Origin: an uncultured Sphingobacteriales bacterium
Lineage (GTDB): Bacteria; Bacteroidota; Bacteroidia; Chitinophagales; Chitinophagaceae
DNA: 28,270 nucleotides
Direction of reading: 5' to 3'
Assembly: GCA_946479435.1 (NCBI GenBank)
Contig: CAMLFX010000033.1
Span: 1 to 28,270, forward strand
Shown: piece after piece, positions 17,135 to 28,270 of the stretch
Layout: the number at the start of each line of letters is the position of its first letter
How positions within the stretch are numbered: the stretch's first letter is position 1
Program-made: the position numbers and the translations under genes
Notes under the pieces: model-generated
Told to the model about the DNA's origin: nothing
What the model saw: the letters and a program-made list of their open reading frames with translations, nothing else
The model's database searches: none

Positions 17135-19090
17135 ATGATACGTATTACATTGCCCGATGGCGCGGTACGCGAGTATGAAGCCGGTGTTTCAGCGCTGGAT
17201 GTAGCTAAATCGATAAGCGAAGGGCTGGCACGCAAGGTGCTGGCTGCCGAAGTGAATGGTGAAGTATGGGATGCCTTCCGCCCTATAAGCAACGATGCAA
17301 CCCTTAAGTTGCTGACATGGGATGAAAAAGGCGCTAAAGCTACCTTCTGGCACTCTTCTGCCCACCTGATGGCAGAAGCCCTGGAAGCATTGTACCCCGG
17401 CGTAAAGCTGGGCATAGGCCCTTCTATCGATAATGGTTTCTATTATGATGTGGACCTTGGTGGCCGCCCTATAACAGAAGAAGACCTGAAAAAGATAGAA
17501 ACCAAGATGAAGGAACTGGCTAAAAACAACAGCCGCTACGAACGTAAAGACGTATCGAAAGCGGATGCTGTGGCCTACTTTACCGAAAAAGATGACCCCT
17601 ACAAGCTGGAACTGATTCAAGACCTGCAGGATGGCAATATAACCTTCTATACACAAGGCCAGTTTACCGACCTGTGCCGTGGCCCGCACATACCTAATAC
17701 CAGCTTTATAAAGGCTATAAAGCTTACCAATATAGCAGGTGCCTATTGGCGTGGTAATGAGAAGAACAAAATGCTTACCCGCATATACGGTATCACCTTC
17801 CCCGCACAAAAAGAGCTGGATGAATACCTGGCACTGCTGGAAGAAGCGAAGAAGCGCGACCACCGTAAGCTGGGTAAAGAACTGGAACTATTTGCCTTTA
17901 GCGAGAAAGTAGGCAGTGGCTTGCCATTGTGGTTGCCCAAAGGTGCCATGCTGCGCGAACGCCTGCAACAGTTTTTGCAAAAAGCACAAATGGAAAGCGG
18001 TTACCAGCCGGTTATTACCCCACATATAGGCAGCAAGCAACTGTATGTTACTTCGGGCCACTGGGAAAAGTATGGTAAGGATAGTTTCCGCCCCATAACT
18101 ACACCACAGGAAGGCGAGGAGTTTATGCTGAAGCCAATGAACTGTCCGCACCACTGCGAGATATATAAAACATCGCCGCGCTCGTACAAAGACCTGCCGG
18201 TACGTTTGGCAGAGTTTGGTACCGTGTACCGCTACGAGCAATCGGGCGAATTGCATGGGTTAACACGTGTGCGTGGCTTTACCCAGGACGATGCGCACCT
18301 GTTCTGCCGCCCCGACCAGGTACTTGAGGAATTTAAAAAAGTGATAGACCTGGTGATGTATGTATTCACCTCGCTAGATTTTCATGATTTTACTGCACAG
18401 GTATCGCTGCGCGACCAGGAAGACCGCAGCAAGTATATAGGCAGCGAAGAAAACTGGGAAATTGCCGAGCAATCGATAATAACAGCGGCAGCTGAAAAAG
18501 GCCTGAAAACCGTAGTGGAATACGGTGAAGCGGCTTTCTACGGCCCTAAGCTGGATTTTATGGTGAAAGATGCCTTGGGACGCAGCTGGCAGCTGGGTAC
18601 CATACAGGTAGATTATAACCTGCCTGAGCGTTTTGAACTGGAATATGTAGATAGCGATAATACCCGCAAACGCCCTGTAATGATACACCGTGCGCCGTTT
18701 GGCAGTATGGAGCGCTTTATAGCCGTATTGCTGGAGCACTGTGGTGGCGACCTGCCCTTCTGGCTGGCACCTGTGCAGGTGAAAGTATTGCCTATCAGCG
18801 ATAAGTTTCAGCCTTATGCGGAAGAAGTTGCCAAAGCCCTGAAAGCAGAAGGCATACGTGCCGAAGTAGATGACCGCAATGAGAAGATAGGCAGGAAGAT
18901 ACGCGATACCGAGCTGATGAAAGTACCATACATGATGGTGGTGGGTGAAAAAGAAATGAACGACCGCGCCGTAGCCGTACGTAAGCATGGTGAAGGCGAT
19001 AAGGGTACACAACCGCTCGATGAACTGGTAAATGAACTAAAAGAGCTGGTAAAGCAACAAACAGCAGGCAATAAAGCTGCGCTGGCATAA
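17135..19090 (+). CDS. thrS: Threonine--tRNA ligase
   Basis: Charges tRNA-Thr in the cytoplasm. 651 residues, normal length, complete domain order: TGS domain (1-62); editing domain with HSSAH (73-77) and the CRGPH motif that removes mis-charged Ser; catalytic class II core with [12 protein letters not shown], the zinc-binding Cys in MNCPHH, the motif 2 segment [20 protein letters not shown] and motif 3 [11 protein letters not shown]; and the C-terminal anticodon-binding domain starting near [15 protein letters not shown] at 17135. Next to infC, the common thrS-infC arrangement, although infC has its own promoter-like element. Confidence 0.98.
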
Positions 19091-19132
19091 AAGTTTAATA
19101 CAGTATCATATACATTTAAATTACAAATACGC

Positions 19133-19140
19133 TATTTTTG
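19133..19140 (+). promoter_or_regulatory. Promoter -7 element for infC (TATTTTTG)
   Basis: Exact TAnnTTTG match, 22 bp upstream of the infC ATG, within the 72 bp thrS-infC gap. No matching TTG at -33. It would allow infC expression apart from thrS. Confidence 0.5.
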
Positions 19141-19162
19141 CCATCAATTTTAAAAACCATTA

Positions 19163-19720
19163 ATGCAGAAAAGAAGTAAAGGAAAACCATTTTTCAGGCC
19201 AAGACTACCACAAAACGAACATAAACTCAACAGAGAGATAACAGCACCGGAGGTGCGATTGATAGGGGAAGGAGTAGAGCCGGCAGTATATCCGCTGGCA
19301 GAGGCCCTGCGCCTTGCTGAAGAGCAGGAAGTAGACCTGGTAGAAATATCGCCCAACGCAGTGCCGCCTGTTTGCAGGCTTATAGACTATAAAAAATTCT
19401 TGTACGAAAAGAAGAAGAAGGATAAGGAACAGAAAGCAAAGTCGAAACAATCGGAAGTAAAAGAAATACGTTTTACGCCTAATACCGATGACCATGACTT
19501 TGAATTCAAACTAAAACATGCGGAAAAGTTTTTGAAAGAAGGCGATAAAGTAAAGTGCTACGTACAGTTCAAAGGCCGTGCTATCATGTTCCAGGATCGT
19601 GGTGAACTAATGCTGCTGAAGTTTGCAGAAAGACTAGCAGAATGGGGTAGTTTAGAGTCAATGCCGAAAATGGAGGGTAGAAGGATGCTTGCAATCTTTA
19701 CACCGAAGAAAAAGAAATAA
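19163..19720 (+). CDS. infC: Translation initiation factor IF-3
   Basis: Binds the 30S subunit and checks start-codon pairing. 185 residues with both domains: the IF3-N domain with the hallmark HKLNREITAPEVRLIGEGVE, a lysine-rich linker (KKKKDKEQKAKSK) and the IF3-C domain with VKEIRFTPNTDDHDFEFKLK and GDKVKCYVQFKGR. It begins with ATG at 19163, not the rare AUU used for autoregulation in E. coli. The usual partners rpmI (L35) and rplT (L20) do not follow; instead a gene-free AT-rich stretch does. Confidence 0.97.
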   Translation: MQKRSKGKPFFRPRLPQNEHKLNREITAPEVRLIGEGVEPAVYPLAEALRLAEEQEVDLVEISPNAVPPVCRLIDYKKFLYEKKKKDKEQKAKSKQSEVKEIRFTPNTDDHDFEFKLKHAEKFLKEGDKVKCYVQFKGRAIMFQDRGELMLLKFAERLAEWGSLESMPKMEGRRMLAIFTPKKKK

Positions 19721-19813
19721 CAAAATCTGTTAAAATTTGTTAATGATTTTTAGATTTAAATTAGTTTGTTGATTTTCAATGAGTTGGTTAATTTAATTTT
19801 TTTTTACTCAGAT

Positions 19814-19843
19814 TTGCTAAAATCAATTTTGTCATTAACTTTG
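19814..19843 (+). promoter_or_regulatory. Consensus Bacteroidota promoter (TTG-N19-TAACTTTG)
   Basis: TTG at 19814-19816, a spacer of exactly 19 bp, then TAACTTTG at 19836-19843. It is the only promoter I found in the window with both boxes matching the consensus exactly. No protein gene follows for 240 bp, but a terminator does at 19945, so it appears to drive a short noncoding RNA. Confidence 0.75.
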
Positions 19844-19847
19844 CATC

Positions 19848-19972
19848 AAACCTTAGGGTATTAACAAAAAGATATTATAGCGCTTAACAATTTGATTGGG
19901 CGTTTTTATATAAAGAGGTTTTCATGGTGATAGGGTTTATAGGGGCTGGCCTGTTCTCAGGCTGGCTTTTTT
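19848..19972 (+). ncRNA. Candidate small noncoding RNA (possibly 6S-like)
   Basis: The predicted transcript of about 125 nt runs from just after the promoter at 19814-19843 to the U-tract at 19972. Hand folding gives a closing stem AAACCTTA (19848-19855) with TAGGGTTT (19931-19938), 8 bp with one G-U; a large open internal loop; an apical hairpin CGCTTAA (19881-19887) / TTGGGCG (19896-19902) with partial flanking pairs; then the terminator hairpin. A rod closed at the base with an open centre recalls 6S RNA, but it is shorter than usual 6S. The Bacteroidales-1 RNA motif is, as I recall, also a promoter-to-terminator unit near the L20 gene in this phylum. The identity is a guess; the existence of a transcript is a reasonable inference. 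Confidence 0.5.
19945..19972 (+). terminator. Intrinsic terminator of the candidate small RNA
   Basis: Stem GCTGGCCTG (19945-19953) / CAGGCTGGC (19958-19966), 9 bp with two G-U pairs, loop TTCT, then six T. A clear rho-independent terminator not next to any protein-gene stop. Confidence 0.88.
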
Positions 19973-20090
19973 ATTTGTACTATGTCATGCTTTAATGGCT
20001 ATGCAATTGTTGTACATACTGTGATGGTGTGCTACAAGCCAGCTTCAATCATATTTTGCTTATATTAGAGCGCAAATCATCAATCTACAC

Positions 20091-21179
20091 ATGCGCCTGA
20101 AGATCTTACTAACACTCTCTATCCTTGCCGGTTTTGTTGTAAACGTTGTTGCCCAGCCTCTAAGTGCTTTTACCAATATGCAGAATCAGGTAATGGTTTG
20201 GAACAAAGGCATGATACGTAAGATTGACTACCTGCCGCCAACTGAAATGAAAATAGGGCGCACGGTAATACCTTACATAGATAACTCCCGTTCATTCAAA
20301 ATATATTACAACGGAGCAGTGAAGCAAGTGAACAGCGGGTTTACCAACGAATTTACGGTGAGCGACAACCTGATGTCTTACAAAAACGCAACAACGTTAT
20401 ATGTGTTCGACAATGGTGATATCAAACTACTCTCTACTTACACCTCGCAATACTATATGGGCGATAGCGTAATATTGTTCTTCGATGGCATACGCAGCGA
20501 ATATAAAGCCTACTACAACGGCCAGGTGTACCCAATAGAAGCTTTTCTTGCAGGCGATGCGCTTCAGGTAGTAAAGGTGAGTGATAATATAGCGGCTTAT
20601 GATAACTACGCTAACCAGTTCCACCTGTTTTACCTGGGCAATATCATCAACCAGGAAGAGTACGCCGTAAATAGTTTTGAAGTTGGCCGCAACACAGTAG
20701 CTTATGTTGATATCAATCGCCAGTTCAAAATATTTCACAACGGGCAAACATATATAACGGAAGATTTTCCACCATCAAAATACCTTGCAGGCGATAATTT
20801 AGTAGCCTATGTATCGTACGACGGGTATTTTAAAATATTCTATGGCGATAGTTTACAGACTATAGGATTTTTTACACCGCAGGATTTTAAAGTAACTGAT
20901 AATATGGTAGCCTGGCGCGACCCCAGCGGATACTTTAAAGTATTCTACAAAGGCGTTATTTCATCGCTTGAATCGTACTACCCCGATAAGTATATAATGC
21001 AATACAATTCTATAGCCTATATCAACAGGTCGAACGTATTGCGCCTGTTTACCGCAGGTGAAATCTACGATGTAACTACTGCCGAAGTAGAAGGCTGGGA
21101 GCTAAGCTACGATGTGCTGAAGTACCAGATAGGCAATAACATGTTCCGCATCAACTACAAAGGGCGCGAGTATTATTAA
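20091..21179 (+). CDS. Secreted protein of about nine 35-residue repeats
   Basis: 362 residues with signal peptide MRLKILLTLSILAGFVVNVVAQ. The rest is tandem repeats of about 34-36 residues with the pattern (G/S/T)DN(x)VAY.D....FKIFY.G, then a loop of about 12 residues and (D/E)F.V. Clear copies start near GRTVIPYIDNSRSFKIYYNG, SDNIAAYDNYANQFHLFYLG, GRNTVAYVDINRQFKIFHNG, GDNLVAYVSYDGYFKIFYGD and TDNMVAWRDPSGYFKVFYKG. The unit is short for TolB/WD40/kelch blades, so it may be a small-blade propeller or a beta-solenoid. No T9SS domain. Fourteen bp separate it from the OMP pair, suggesting an envelope operon. Function unknown. Confidence 0.9.
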   Translation: MRLKILLTLSILAGFVVNVVAQPLSAFTNMQNQVMVWNKGMIRKIDYLPPTEMKIGRTVIPYIDNSRSFKIYYNGAVKQVNSGFTNEFTVSDNLMSYKNATTLYVFDNGDIKLLSTYTSQYYMGDSVILFFDGIRSEYKAYYNGQVYPIEAFLAGDALQVVKVSDNIAAYDNYANQFHLFYLGNIINQEEYAVNSFEVGRNTVAYVDINRQFKIFHNGQTYITEDFPPSKYLAGDNLVAYVSYDGYFKIFYGDSLQTIGFFTPQDFKVTDNMVAWRDPSGYFKVFYKGVISSLESYYPDKYIMQYNSIAYINRSNVLRLFTAGEIYDVTTAEVEGWELSYDVLKYQIGNNMFRINYKGREYY

Positions 21180-21193
21180 TTCAAAATTCAAAA

Positions 21194-21826
21194 GTGAAGC
21201 AAACTCTGTCAATAGCAATTTTATTGCTATTTGCTATAAATGTGCAGGCGGGTATATTTATAGCTGCTGAAGGTGGTATTGGAGAAGTAGGTATGAAGTC
21301 GACAACTAAGGATCAACTAACGCCGTTTTGGGGGCTGCGCGTGGGTGTTAAATATAAAATGCTGATAGCCGGTGCAGGTATGCGCAGTTGGGGTACTAAA
21401 TATTTAGGGCCTATGCAGCTTACTGACAGGCAGGGTTATGAACATACGTTTGGCAGCACATTTAATATACGAAGCACATCTTTGCCAGTTTTTGCGGGTA
21501 TCGATATACCGCTGGATGATAAGCTATCCCTTCAGGCAATAGGAATGTACGCGCCCACCTTCGTGCGTAAGAATGTGATAACACTGCTTACTGCTAATAT
21601 GGGTGCCATTGTGGCAAAAGAAACATATAGCGCCGCAGGTATCGATATTGCTGCTGAATATAAAGCGAGTAAGCATATTGCAGTTACATTCAAGTTTACC
21701 CACTTTGCCTATCTTGATGGATTGAAATACACTGTTACCGATGCCGGTGCGGCCCGTTATTTTAATAATGTGAAAGACAAGCCAACCCTAAACGCTGTAG
21801 CTTTACAATTCAATTATTATTTCTAA
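21194..21826 (+). CDS. Outer-membrane beta-barrel protein (paralogue 1)
   Basis: 210 residues from a GTG at 21194; that start is fixed by the signal peptide MKQTLSIAILLLFAINVQAG. The body is alternating amphipathic strands (LRVGVKYKMLIAGAGMRSWG, STSLPVFAGIDIPL, YSAAGIDIAAEYKASKHIAV) and the protein ends in LQFNYYF, the aromatic C-terminus of barrels inserted by BamA. Probably a small porin-like or structural OMP of eight to ten strands. Its stop and the next ATG are adjacent (TAAATG), and the next gene is a paralogue. No substrate can be proposed. Confidence 0.85.
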   Translation: MKQTLSIAILLLFAINVQAGIFIAAEGGIGEVGMKSTTKDQLTPFWGLRVGVKYKMLIAGAGMRSWGTKYLGPMQLTDRQGYEHTFGSTFNIRSTSLPVFAGIDIPLDDKLSLQAIGMYAPTFVRKNVITLLTANMGAIVAKETYSAAGIDIAAEYKASKHIAVTFKFTHFAYLDGLKYTVTDAGAARYFNNVKDKPTLNAVALQFNYYF

Positions 21827-22471
21827 ATGAAACGCATAATATCCATAGCAATTATATTGTTTATTGCTGTTAGTGCAAATGCTAAAATACATATAGCTGC
21901 CGAGGCGGGGTTTGGTAATACTGGTATCAAAACAGGATATAATACATCGCCGTCGGGTATGTATGGGCTAATGATAGGTAAAGAGTTTAAAGTGCTGCTG
22001 GTAGATATAGGTGTACGTTCGTGGAGCTGCAACTATAGCGCGCAGAAAAATGTATTGTCAGGTGGTACATTATCGAGCGCTATATACGATGCTAATCTTG
22101 TTAATATATCAGTACCCATATCGGCAGGTATATATTTACCGTTGGGTAAAATAAATATACTGGCAAAGGCTGTGCTGGCGCCTACGTTTATCAGCAAGCA
22201 CGATATGAAAGAAGAAATGTCGGGTACAGCATTACCTATCTTAAATGCTGAAGACTATACCAAGCGTTATTTCACCGCAGCGGGTTGCGATCTTGGTATT
22301 GGCTACTCTTTCTCCAAACACATTTCGCTGGATGCGAAATATTCTTTGCTGGCTGCAGTATCAGACCTGAAGCATACGCCTGTTCTTGTATCTGCCAACC
22401 CTGTTATTTTAGGCGAAGGAGAAAGGCCACGCATCAATGCATTTGCTTTGCAACTGAATTTTTTCCTGTAG
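21827..22471 (+). CDS. Outer-membrane beta-barrel protein (paralogue 2)
   Basis: 214 residues, signal peptide MKRIISIAIILFIAVSANA. Collinear with the preceding gene: IHIAAEAGFGNTGIK with IFIAAEGGIGEVGMK; VGVRSWSCNY-type strand (DIGVRSWSCNY) with GAGMRSWGTKY; SAGIYLPL with FAGIDIPL; APTFISK with APTFVRK; TAAGCDLGIGYSFSKHISL with SAAGIDIAAEYKASKHIAV; and INAFALQLNFFL with LNAVALQFNYYF. Identity is low to moderate by eye, so the duplication is old. Translation is probably coupled to the first copy (zero-bp gap). No terminator was seen after it. Confidence 0.87.
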   Translation: MKRIISIAIILFIAVSANAKIHIAAEAGFGNTGIKTGYNTSPSGMYGLMIGKEFKVLLVDIGVRSWSCNYSAQKNVLSGGTLSSAIYDANLVNISVPISAGIYLPLGKINILAKAVLAPTFISKHDMKEEMSGTALPILNAEDYTKRYFTAAGCDLGIGYSFSKHISLDAKYSLLAAVSDLKHTPVLVSANPVILGEGERPRINAFALQLNFFL

Positions 22472-22514
22472 TATTTTCCATCAGAAATTTAATTCATATC
22501 ACTGCCGGTTAAAT

Positions 22515-27969: not shown

Positions 27970-28020
27970 TTTTATTTTAATTATTGTTGTATATTTGCTA
28001 TTGTAAATAACAGCTTCTTT

Positions 28021-28150
28021 CCGTCATTGCGAGCGATAGCGTGGCAACCTCGCGGAATGAGGGTATTACGTATCACATGTTGTAGCAAGATTATTCCGCT
28101 ATCGCTACATGAGAAAAGTTGCCACGTCGTTGCACTCCTCGCAATGACGG
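28021..28150. repeat. 130 bp palindromic REP/MITE-like element
   Basis: The outer arms CCGTCATTGCGAG (28021-28033) and CTCGCAATGACGG (28138-28150) pair perfectly over 13 bp. Inner arms GTGGCAAC (28041-28048) and GTTGCCAC (28118-28125) pair too, and GCGGAAT (28052-28058) pairs with ATTCCGC (28093-28099). AGCGATAGC (28032-28040) is also the reverse complement of GCTATCGCT (28098-28106), offering another fold. No coding capacity. Terminal sequences of the type GTCATTGCGAG...CTCGCAATGAC are, as I recall, common dispersed repeats in several bacterial phyla. No target-site duplication was confirmed. Confidence 0.85.
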
Positions 28151-28213: not shown

Positions 28214-28234
28214 TAAATGACAAACCCTATCACC

Positions 28235-28270
28235 ATGAAAAAGAAAGAGACCCAGTGGTTCTCTCACGAA
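28235..28270 (+). CDS. Start of an unidentified gene (12 codons, cut by the window end)
   Basis: The ATG at 28235 opens a frame MKKKETQWFSHE that reaches the edge without a stop. The Lys-rich start and position after a regulatory-looking stretch make it a plausible gene start. QWFSHE faintly recalls the opening of Bacteroidota DUF4373/Lin1244-type proteins, but 12 residues are too few to say. Confidence 0.4.
   Translation, partial: MKKKETQWFSHE

Follow-up and report, generated by a model that had tools for sequence, protein, structure and literature searches.

The unit behind infC

The DNA analysed (the window: the whole stretch of 28,270 nucleotides presented above) carries infC, followed by a promoter and an intrinsic terminator (Table 1). 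The first-pass annotation had seen no protein gene behind this promoter, and no ORF of at least 40 aa overlaps positions 19721-20090 on either strand. The start of the predicted RNA (19848) is inferred: it was set 5 nt past the promoter box.

Table 1. Features of the RNA unit and of its candidate target in the window
Feature	Positions	Strand	Description	Basis
infC (IF-3)	19163..19720	+	Gene upstream of the RNA unit	Pfam IF3_N and IF3_C
Promoter	19813..19843	+	TTTG 19813-19816, spacer 19 bp, TAACTTTG 19836-19843	Pattern search; promoter type common in relatives
Variable 5′ leader of the predicted RNA	19848..19918	+	Unconserved; holds a weaker terminator-like hairpin (19879-19904)	
Near-invariant core	19919..19944	+	UUUUCAUGGUGAUAGGGUUUAUAGGG; proposed seed	Alignment A1, copies of relatives
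Intrinsic terminator	19945..19972	+	Stem 19945-19953 with 19958-19966, loop 19954-19957, T run	Folding and covariation
Candidate target	28222..28241	+	Perfect 20-nt complement of 19919-19938, over ATG 28235-28237	R1 match, sequence comparison

The pattern TTTG-N19-21-TAnnTTTG has its sole match in the window at this promoter. The chance expectation is 0.46, and at least one match is found in 34 of 100 shuffles. The box and the 19-bp spacer described earlier as the best promoter of the window are thus present but insignificant against shuffled sequence; judged within the window alone, the promoter proves little. It is credible because promoters of its type recur in relatives. The consensus is the published Bacteroides one, of which only the -7 part was confirmed in Flavobacterium johnsoniae (PMC7366714). 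The terminator, already noted as good at first reading, forms 13 pairs at 19941-19970, the most among 7 terminator-like sites listed in 17500-22500 (5.3 expected by chance). The predicted RNA (19845-19975) has a folding z of -3.11; 1 of 200 dinucleotide shuffles folds equally well. The window contains one copy of the RNA element.

Two other features were noted. A 10-bladed beta-propeller gene (PF21734, 20091-21179) lies directly downstream of the RNA, and adjoins it in several relatives too. A palindromic REP-like repeat (CGTCATTGCGAGCGATAGCGTGGCAACC...), found by eye, occurs in both orientations at 28020-28150.

Conserved core and covarying terminator

Conservation is confined to the final 58 nt (19919-19976), in which the near-invariant 26-mer UUUUCAURGUGAUAGGGUUUAUAGGG precedes the intrinsic terminator. 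Alignment A1 includes 49 of the 63 distinct 58-nt cores and the window copy (50 rows); the 14 omitted cores have stems that were already represented.

Over the 50 distinct cores of A1, 98.4% of the cells of the terminator stem are paired, and 6 of its 9 pairs are changed on both sides (50 double-sided cells in total). Slid registers of the stem give 16-50% of paired cells. None of 500 shuffles reaches the observed covariation on 4 of 5 measures, and 31 of 500 reach the number of pairs with double changes; as the aligned rows are related, these shuffle counts and those given below for promoters are not probabilities. What has been preserved while the letters drifted is an RNA hairpin.

The core hardly varies; a few rows of A1 have indels of 1-3 bases. 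These indels are evidence against a small hydrophobic peptide encoded from the ATG inside the core (19924), an explanation that can practically be dismissed: read by eye, its frame in the window runs for 23 codons without a stop, but ATA is found at this position in second copies, one-base deletions shift the frame in L041, L047, L049 and L112, and the changes in the stem obey base pairing.

The leader is unconserved. Leader-core pairing in 29 leaders (window included) is no better than with shuffled leaders (mean z -0.06), and in the window it is weaker than in its own shuffles (z +0.64). The closing stem and apical hairpin proposed at first reading do appear in the MFE fold of the window sequence; with leader-core pairing at chance, the closing stem is therefore a property of one sequence. 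Covarying stems had been suggested as a check: the terminator stem covaries, and the leader with the closing stem is unconserved. The 20-nt seed is 40% unpaired in the full RNA of the window, 81% in the core alone and 78% in a leaderless copy. Masking of the seed by the leader in the window genome is possible but unsupported.

Distribution of the family

Downstream DNA was read for the best 80 of at least 551 loci encoding InfC relatives. Exclusion of 4 loci with less than 150 nt of downstream DNA left 76. The core (at most 3 mismatches) lies within 700 nt behind infC in 42 of these 76 loci, which are drawn from the best 80 of at least 551. Two copies are found in 26 of the 42, three in one (L034) and one in 15, including L003 and L021, whose contigs end shortly after the copy. 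The first infC-linked copy has CATGG in 41/42 cases and the second has CATAG in 27/27. InfC identity is 83-85% in two of the 34 core-free loci (L013 and L036) and 63-74% in the remaining 32; the most distant core-bearing loci (73-74%) overlap this range. One core-bearing record, L001 (JANLJF010000134.1), is labelled Azovibrio restrictus; its infC locus is 90% identical to that of the window and has the same RNA copies, and the label looks wrong.

In whole genomes, 66 core matches are found in 22 of 27 (1-8 per genome, at least two in 20 of the 22; reversed pattern: 0). By listed place, 38 are infC-linked and 28 are elsewhere. Copies away from infC have unrelated neighbours, among them a resolvase and an IS110 transposase. 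Neighbouring ORFs of 30 such copies were called mechanically (at least 90 aa): 19 have a downstream ORF on their own strand and 11 have one on the opposite strand. These mixed strands and neighbours indicate that there is no common cis gene. They also make it very unlikely that the element acts in cis, as leader or attenuator of the gene behind it, an idea favoured by the same-strand propeller gene that comes next in the window and in several relatives, but opposed by these neighbours and by the 11 of 30 copies facing an opposite-strand ORF.

After removal of rows sharing flank and core, 99 copies remained; one of them, L043 on the minus strand with 5 mismatches, does not belong to the family and was later removed. 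L182 carries a further diverged copy whose terminator stem is different. Some copies depart from the common form. G002 (L115-L118) has 8 copies, in 4 of which the leading UUUU before the CAUAG core is replaced (CC, GC, GC, AGC); these four form a sub-family with a shortened seed. The minus-strand copy at 2001 of L111 (G014) has lost the 3′ side of the stem and the T run and runs into ATGAAAAAA; it may have become a 5′ UTR.

When 298 genomes were drawn evenly from the order, 9 matched, 8 with the core and one (G190) solely at a gene start. The RNA unit belongs to one clade, whose records bear the names Flavipsychrobacter, Taibaiella or Edaphocola or are unnamed Chitinophagaceae or Bacteroidetes. 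The family covariance model, R1, does match 98 of 247 genomes of the phylum at E ≤0.1; after the true copies in G009 and G020 its scores fall to about 30 bits, and the 18 weak R1 loci that were read (L223-L240) have terminators and lack the core. The occurrence of the RNA is claimed for the Flavipsychrobacter/Taibaiella/Edaphocola clade and not phylum-wide. The exact 23-mer pattern, searched for phage carriage, is absent from viral_contigs.

Promoters of the copies

The box TAnnTTTG is found within 110 nt upstream of 29/39 first copies, 21/29 second copies and 11/30 other copies (shuffle means: 4.6, 4.0 and 3.0, respectively). The two-part promoter is found for 25 first, 16 second and 3 other copies (shuffle means: 0.45, 0.61 and 0.43); the 3 found elsewhere are within the shuffle maximum of 3. 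The end of the box lies exactly 6 nt ahead of the core in 18 of the 29 second copies, whose RNAs would thus begin at the core itself. No box within 110 nt was found for 10/39 first copies and 19/30 copies elsewhere, and in L041, L042, L047 and L049 the core lies 42-49 nt past the infC stop.

Instead of acting in trans, the element could serve infC and other genes as a conserved 3′UTR or terminator module. This is unlikely. It would fit the four loci just named, which have no recognised promoter, the copies elsewhere, most of which lack the box, and the L119 copy, which directly follows the end of a gene (read by eye). However, a terminator has no need of an invariant 26-mer before its stem, in most infC-linked copies a promoter separates the core from infC, and the second copies of tandems carry promoters of their own.

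The first-pass annotation had proposed a promoter-to-terminator small RNA, and this is supported by the conserved core, the covarying terminator, the conserved promoters and the paralogs. It had found a real unit, but misread its functional part and its relatives. What it missed is the restriction of conservation to the last 58 nt, which make up a multicopy family.

Comparison with known RNAs

No model of Rfam release 15 recognises the element at its cut-off, and no paper on it was found in the open-licence literature.

The resemblance to a short 6S RNA claimed at first did not survive: none of the 7 Rfam matches at E ≤10 in 19700-20100 belongs to a 6S family, and the closing stem is unconserved. 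The search with 6S-Flavo (RF01685) in 12 genomes also gave no match, a result that is little informative as the control genomes were silent too. The element shares with 6S and 6S-Flavo RNAs the form of a promoter-to-terminator RNA of 100-130 nt; it differs in having no model match and no conserved closing stem. A 6S-type RNA binding RNA polymerase is thus highly improbable: the long closed structure in the MFE fold of a single sequence speaks for it, the lack of a 6S match at E ≤10 and leader-core pairing at chance against it.

The Bacteroidales-1 model, the other relative that had been suggested, matches neither at gathering nor up to E 10 in 19700-20100. A relationship to an RNA linked to L20 likewise falls: L20_leader (RF00558) scores 22.2 bits in the window (gathering: 58.7), and no L20 gene is found near the RNA. 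All 8 weak L20_leader matches in 16 loci fall on copies of the element, which resembles this leader in being an A/U-rich RNA followed by a G+C-rich hairpin and a T run; the likeness is generic terminator similarity. Searches with L20 and L35 proteins (tblastn) placed L20 0.3-3.3 kb behind infC in 13 of the best 80 of at least 551 loci, and in none of the 42 RNA-bearing loci, most of which have 4 kb of downstream DNA. The remark that the unit sits where L35/L20 would be expected was apt, since it stands near the place that these genes have in outgroups.

FopS (RF04319) is nearest in kind. Its model gives 24.4 bits in the window, and 26.9 and 26.7 bits on copies in L112 and L137 (gathering cut-off: 56). 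In 16 further loci (63 kb), it gives 2 weak matches, both on copies of the element. Generic terminator similarity contributes to these weak matches, because all 8 weak L20_leader matches also fall on copies. In 198 genomes of the phylum, the FopS model gives 2 weak matches and none above the cut-off. Both were rejected: L150 lies antisense to a gene start and L151 is a different unit. The latter (1506-1575, G096) consists of UUUUUCAUAGGAUAAGGUUUAAGGG then a terminator, and scores 36.4 bits with FopS and 17.5 with R1; it is a possible bridge between the two families.

FopS and the present family share several features: many copies per genome, and a single-stranded conserved 5′ part that starts with UUUUCAUGGU, is followed by an intrinsic terminator and contains a seed able, in the present family by prediction, to pair across start codons. 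Beyond UUUUCAUGGU, the R1′ seed of FopS and the seed here are only partly alike (GAUAGGGUUUAUAGGG versus AUUAGAUUUAAGGUUAA). Genomes carry 1-8 copies of the present family, versus 12-15 of FopS in Bacteroidaceae (PMC11697453), and the present family, unlike FopS, is often found in tandem behind infC. FopS pairs with the starts of susC and other PUL mRNAs; of the two strong start-codon complements found here, one is in a DUF5686/CarbopepD_reg_2 gene and none in a known susC. FopS-10 binds the start region of a susC mRNA and blocks its translation in vitro, an effect countered by RbpB, which binds FopS (PMC11697453). FopS is taken as a functional model by analogy; the element is not filed in the FopS family.

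In GibS of Bacteroides thetaiotaomicron, too, a single-stranded 5′ seed pairs at translation initiation regions, as would be the case here. GibS differs in carrying two seeds, R1 and R2 (PMC7366714, PMC11697453), while the present family shows no second one, in a comparison of descriptions and not of models.

Candidate targets at translation starts

R1 also matched the minus strand of the window at 28241-28210. The plus strand of this candidate target is AAACCCTATCACCATGAAAA, perfectly complementary to core positions 1-20 and 8 kb from the RNA unit. No such complement is expected by chance; the duplex has -32.0 kcal/mol (best of 500 shuffles: -24.5). The ORF runs off the end of the window, leaving 12 visible codons. 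Translation may instead start at an in-frame ATG at 28217, which would put the complementary site inside the first codons. The codon pattern derived from the 12 visible codons matches in 0 of 27 genomes. Gene order behind rny differs in 15 relatives, and no counterpart of the window target was found there.

The second candidate is in Edaphocola (two sister genomes): a 24-bp pairing that covers the ATGATG with which a DUF5686/CarbopepD_reg_2 gene starts, with -38.5 kcal/mol (best of 500 shuffles: -28.3). The core was taken from one genome and the start region from the other; they are identical between both. The site first came up in the search of the 298 genomes, which had been designed independently of it. 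A later pattern was designed on it, and its zero mismatches there are no independent evidence.

General enrichment was not significant. Start regions with a core complement number 18 of 499, versus 11.1 (sd 6.0) for shuffled seeds, which is not significant; two further measures of start-region enrichment are also near control. At loci without the RNA, 195 start regions contain 1 core complement, versus 4.0 (sd 2.4) for shuffled seeds. The complement search gave 180 matches, including about 70 RNA copies, versus 75 for the reversed pattern; this excess may be explained by the ATGAAAA bias. Among 9 low-mismatch complement sites that were read, one is another copy and 2 of the remaining 8 open an ORF of at least 70 aa. 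Long complements beyond the two strong candidates are scarce. A 131-aa ORF in L119 whose start is complementary to a copy was judged spurious by eye (antisense to what looks like the end of an HU-like gene). The list of targets serves as a lead, and two of its entries are strong.

Proposed mode of action

That this conserved multicopy small RNA family, which Rfam does not recognise, is real can be held with high confidence. Its action by pairing at start codons, suggested by complementarity and by analogy with FopS and GibS, is somewhat favoured. A Bacteroidota housekeeping promoter would drive an RNA ending at the intrinsic terminator: its length would be about 125 nt in the window and about 55 nt where relatives have a leaderless second copy. 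The terminator need only fold, so that its letters may drift with compensation, and the exposed 26-nt core would be the working part. Its end, UUUUCAU(G/A)GU, is the complement of AC(C/U)AUGAAAA translation starts, and FopS/GibS-like action is therefore likely. The core would pair across the start codon and the 5′ UTR of selected mRNAs and block ribosome entry, perhaps with modulation by an RRM protein. RRM_1 proteins are found in 24 of 27 genomes; they are absent from 3 RNA-bearing genomes, both Edaphocola included.

The same proteins bear on the main alternative, in which the core is a protein-binding site (for example, for an RRM protein) and the RNA is a sponge or titrator that does not pair with mRNAs. 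This is a tentative possibility, less probable than pairing. The invariance of the core goes far beyond what a pairing seed requires, general target enrichment was not found, RRM_1 proteins occur in most genomes, and RbpB provides a precedent by its binding of FopS (PMC11697453). On the other side, the RRM_1 match is lacking in the 3 RNA-bearing genomes, and start codons carry two near-perfect complements.

A broader form of the pairing proposal, rather doubtful at present, is a lineage-wide anti-start-codon system: the two paralogous RNAs behind infC, with CAUGG and CAUAG seeds for ACCAUG and ACUAUG, would form a global translational switch. The product of infC is the initiation factor that polices start-codon choice, and these bacteria rely little on Shine-Dalgarno pairing. 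The switch would act on proteins of the AUGAAAA type, largely exported, and dispersed copies would recruit further targets.

Significance

The family is new and the kind of regulator, the FopS/GibS mode, is already known. Small RNA regulation is little charted in Bacteroidota beyond gut Bacteroides. The family would carry this mode (in which a 5′ seed covers the start codon and a terminator follows) into soil and freshwater Chitinophagales. The invariant 26-mer ahead of a freely covarying terminator reveals the part under selection. Two concrete predictions of targets can be examined in named cultured hosts: Edaphocola flava, and Taibaiella soli and Flavipsychrobacter stenotrophus, the latter two with two infC-linked copies each (L024 and L025). 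If the broader, lineage-wide proposal is true, the family would be a convergent or deeply homologous counterpart of FopS, and this class of RNA would be much older and wider than Bacteroides.
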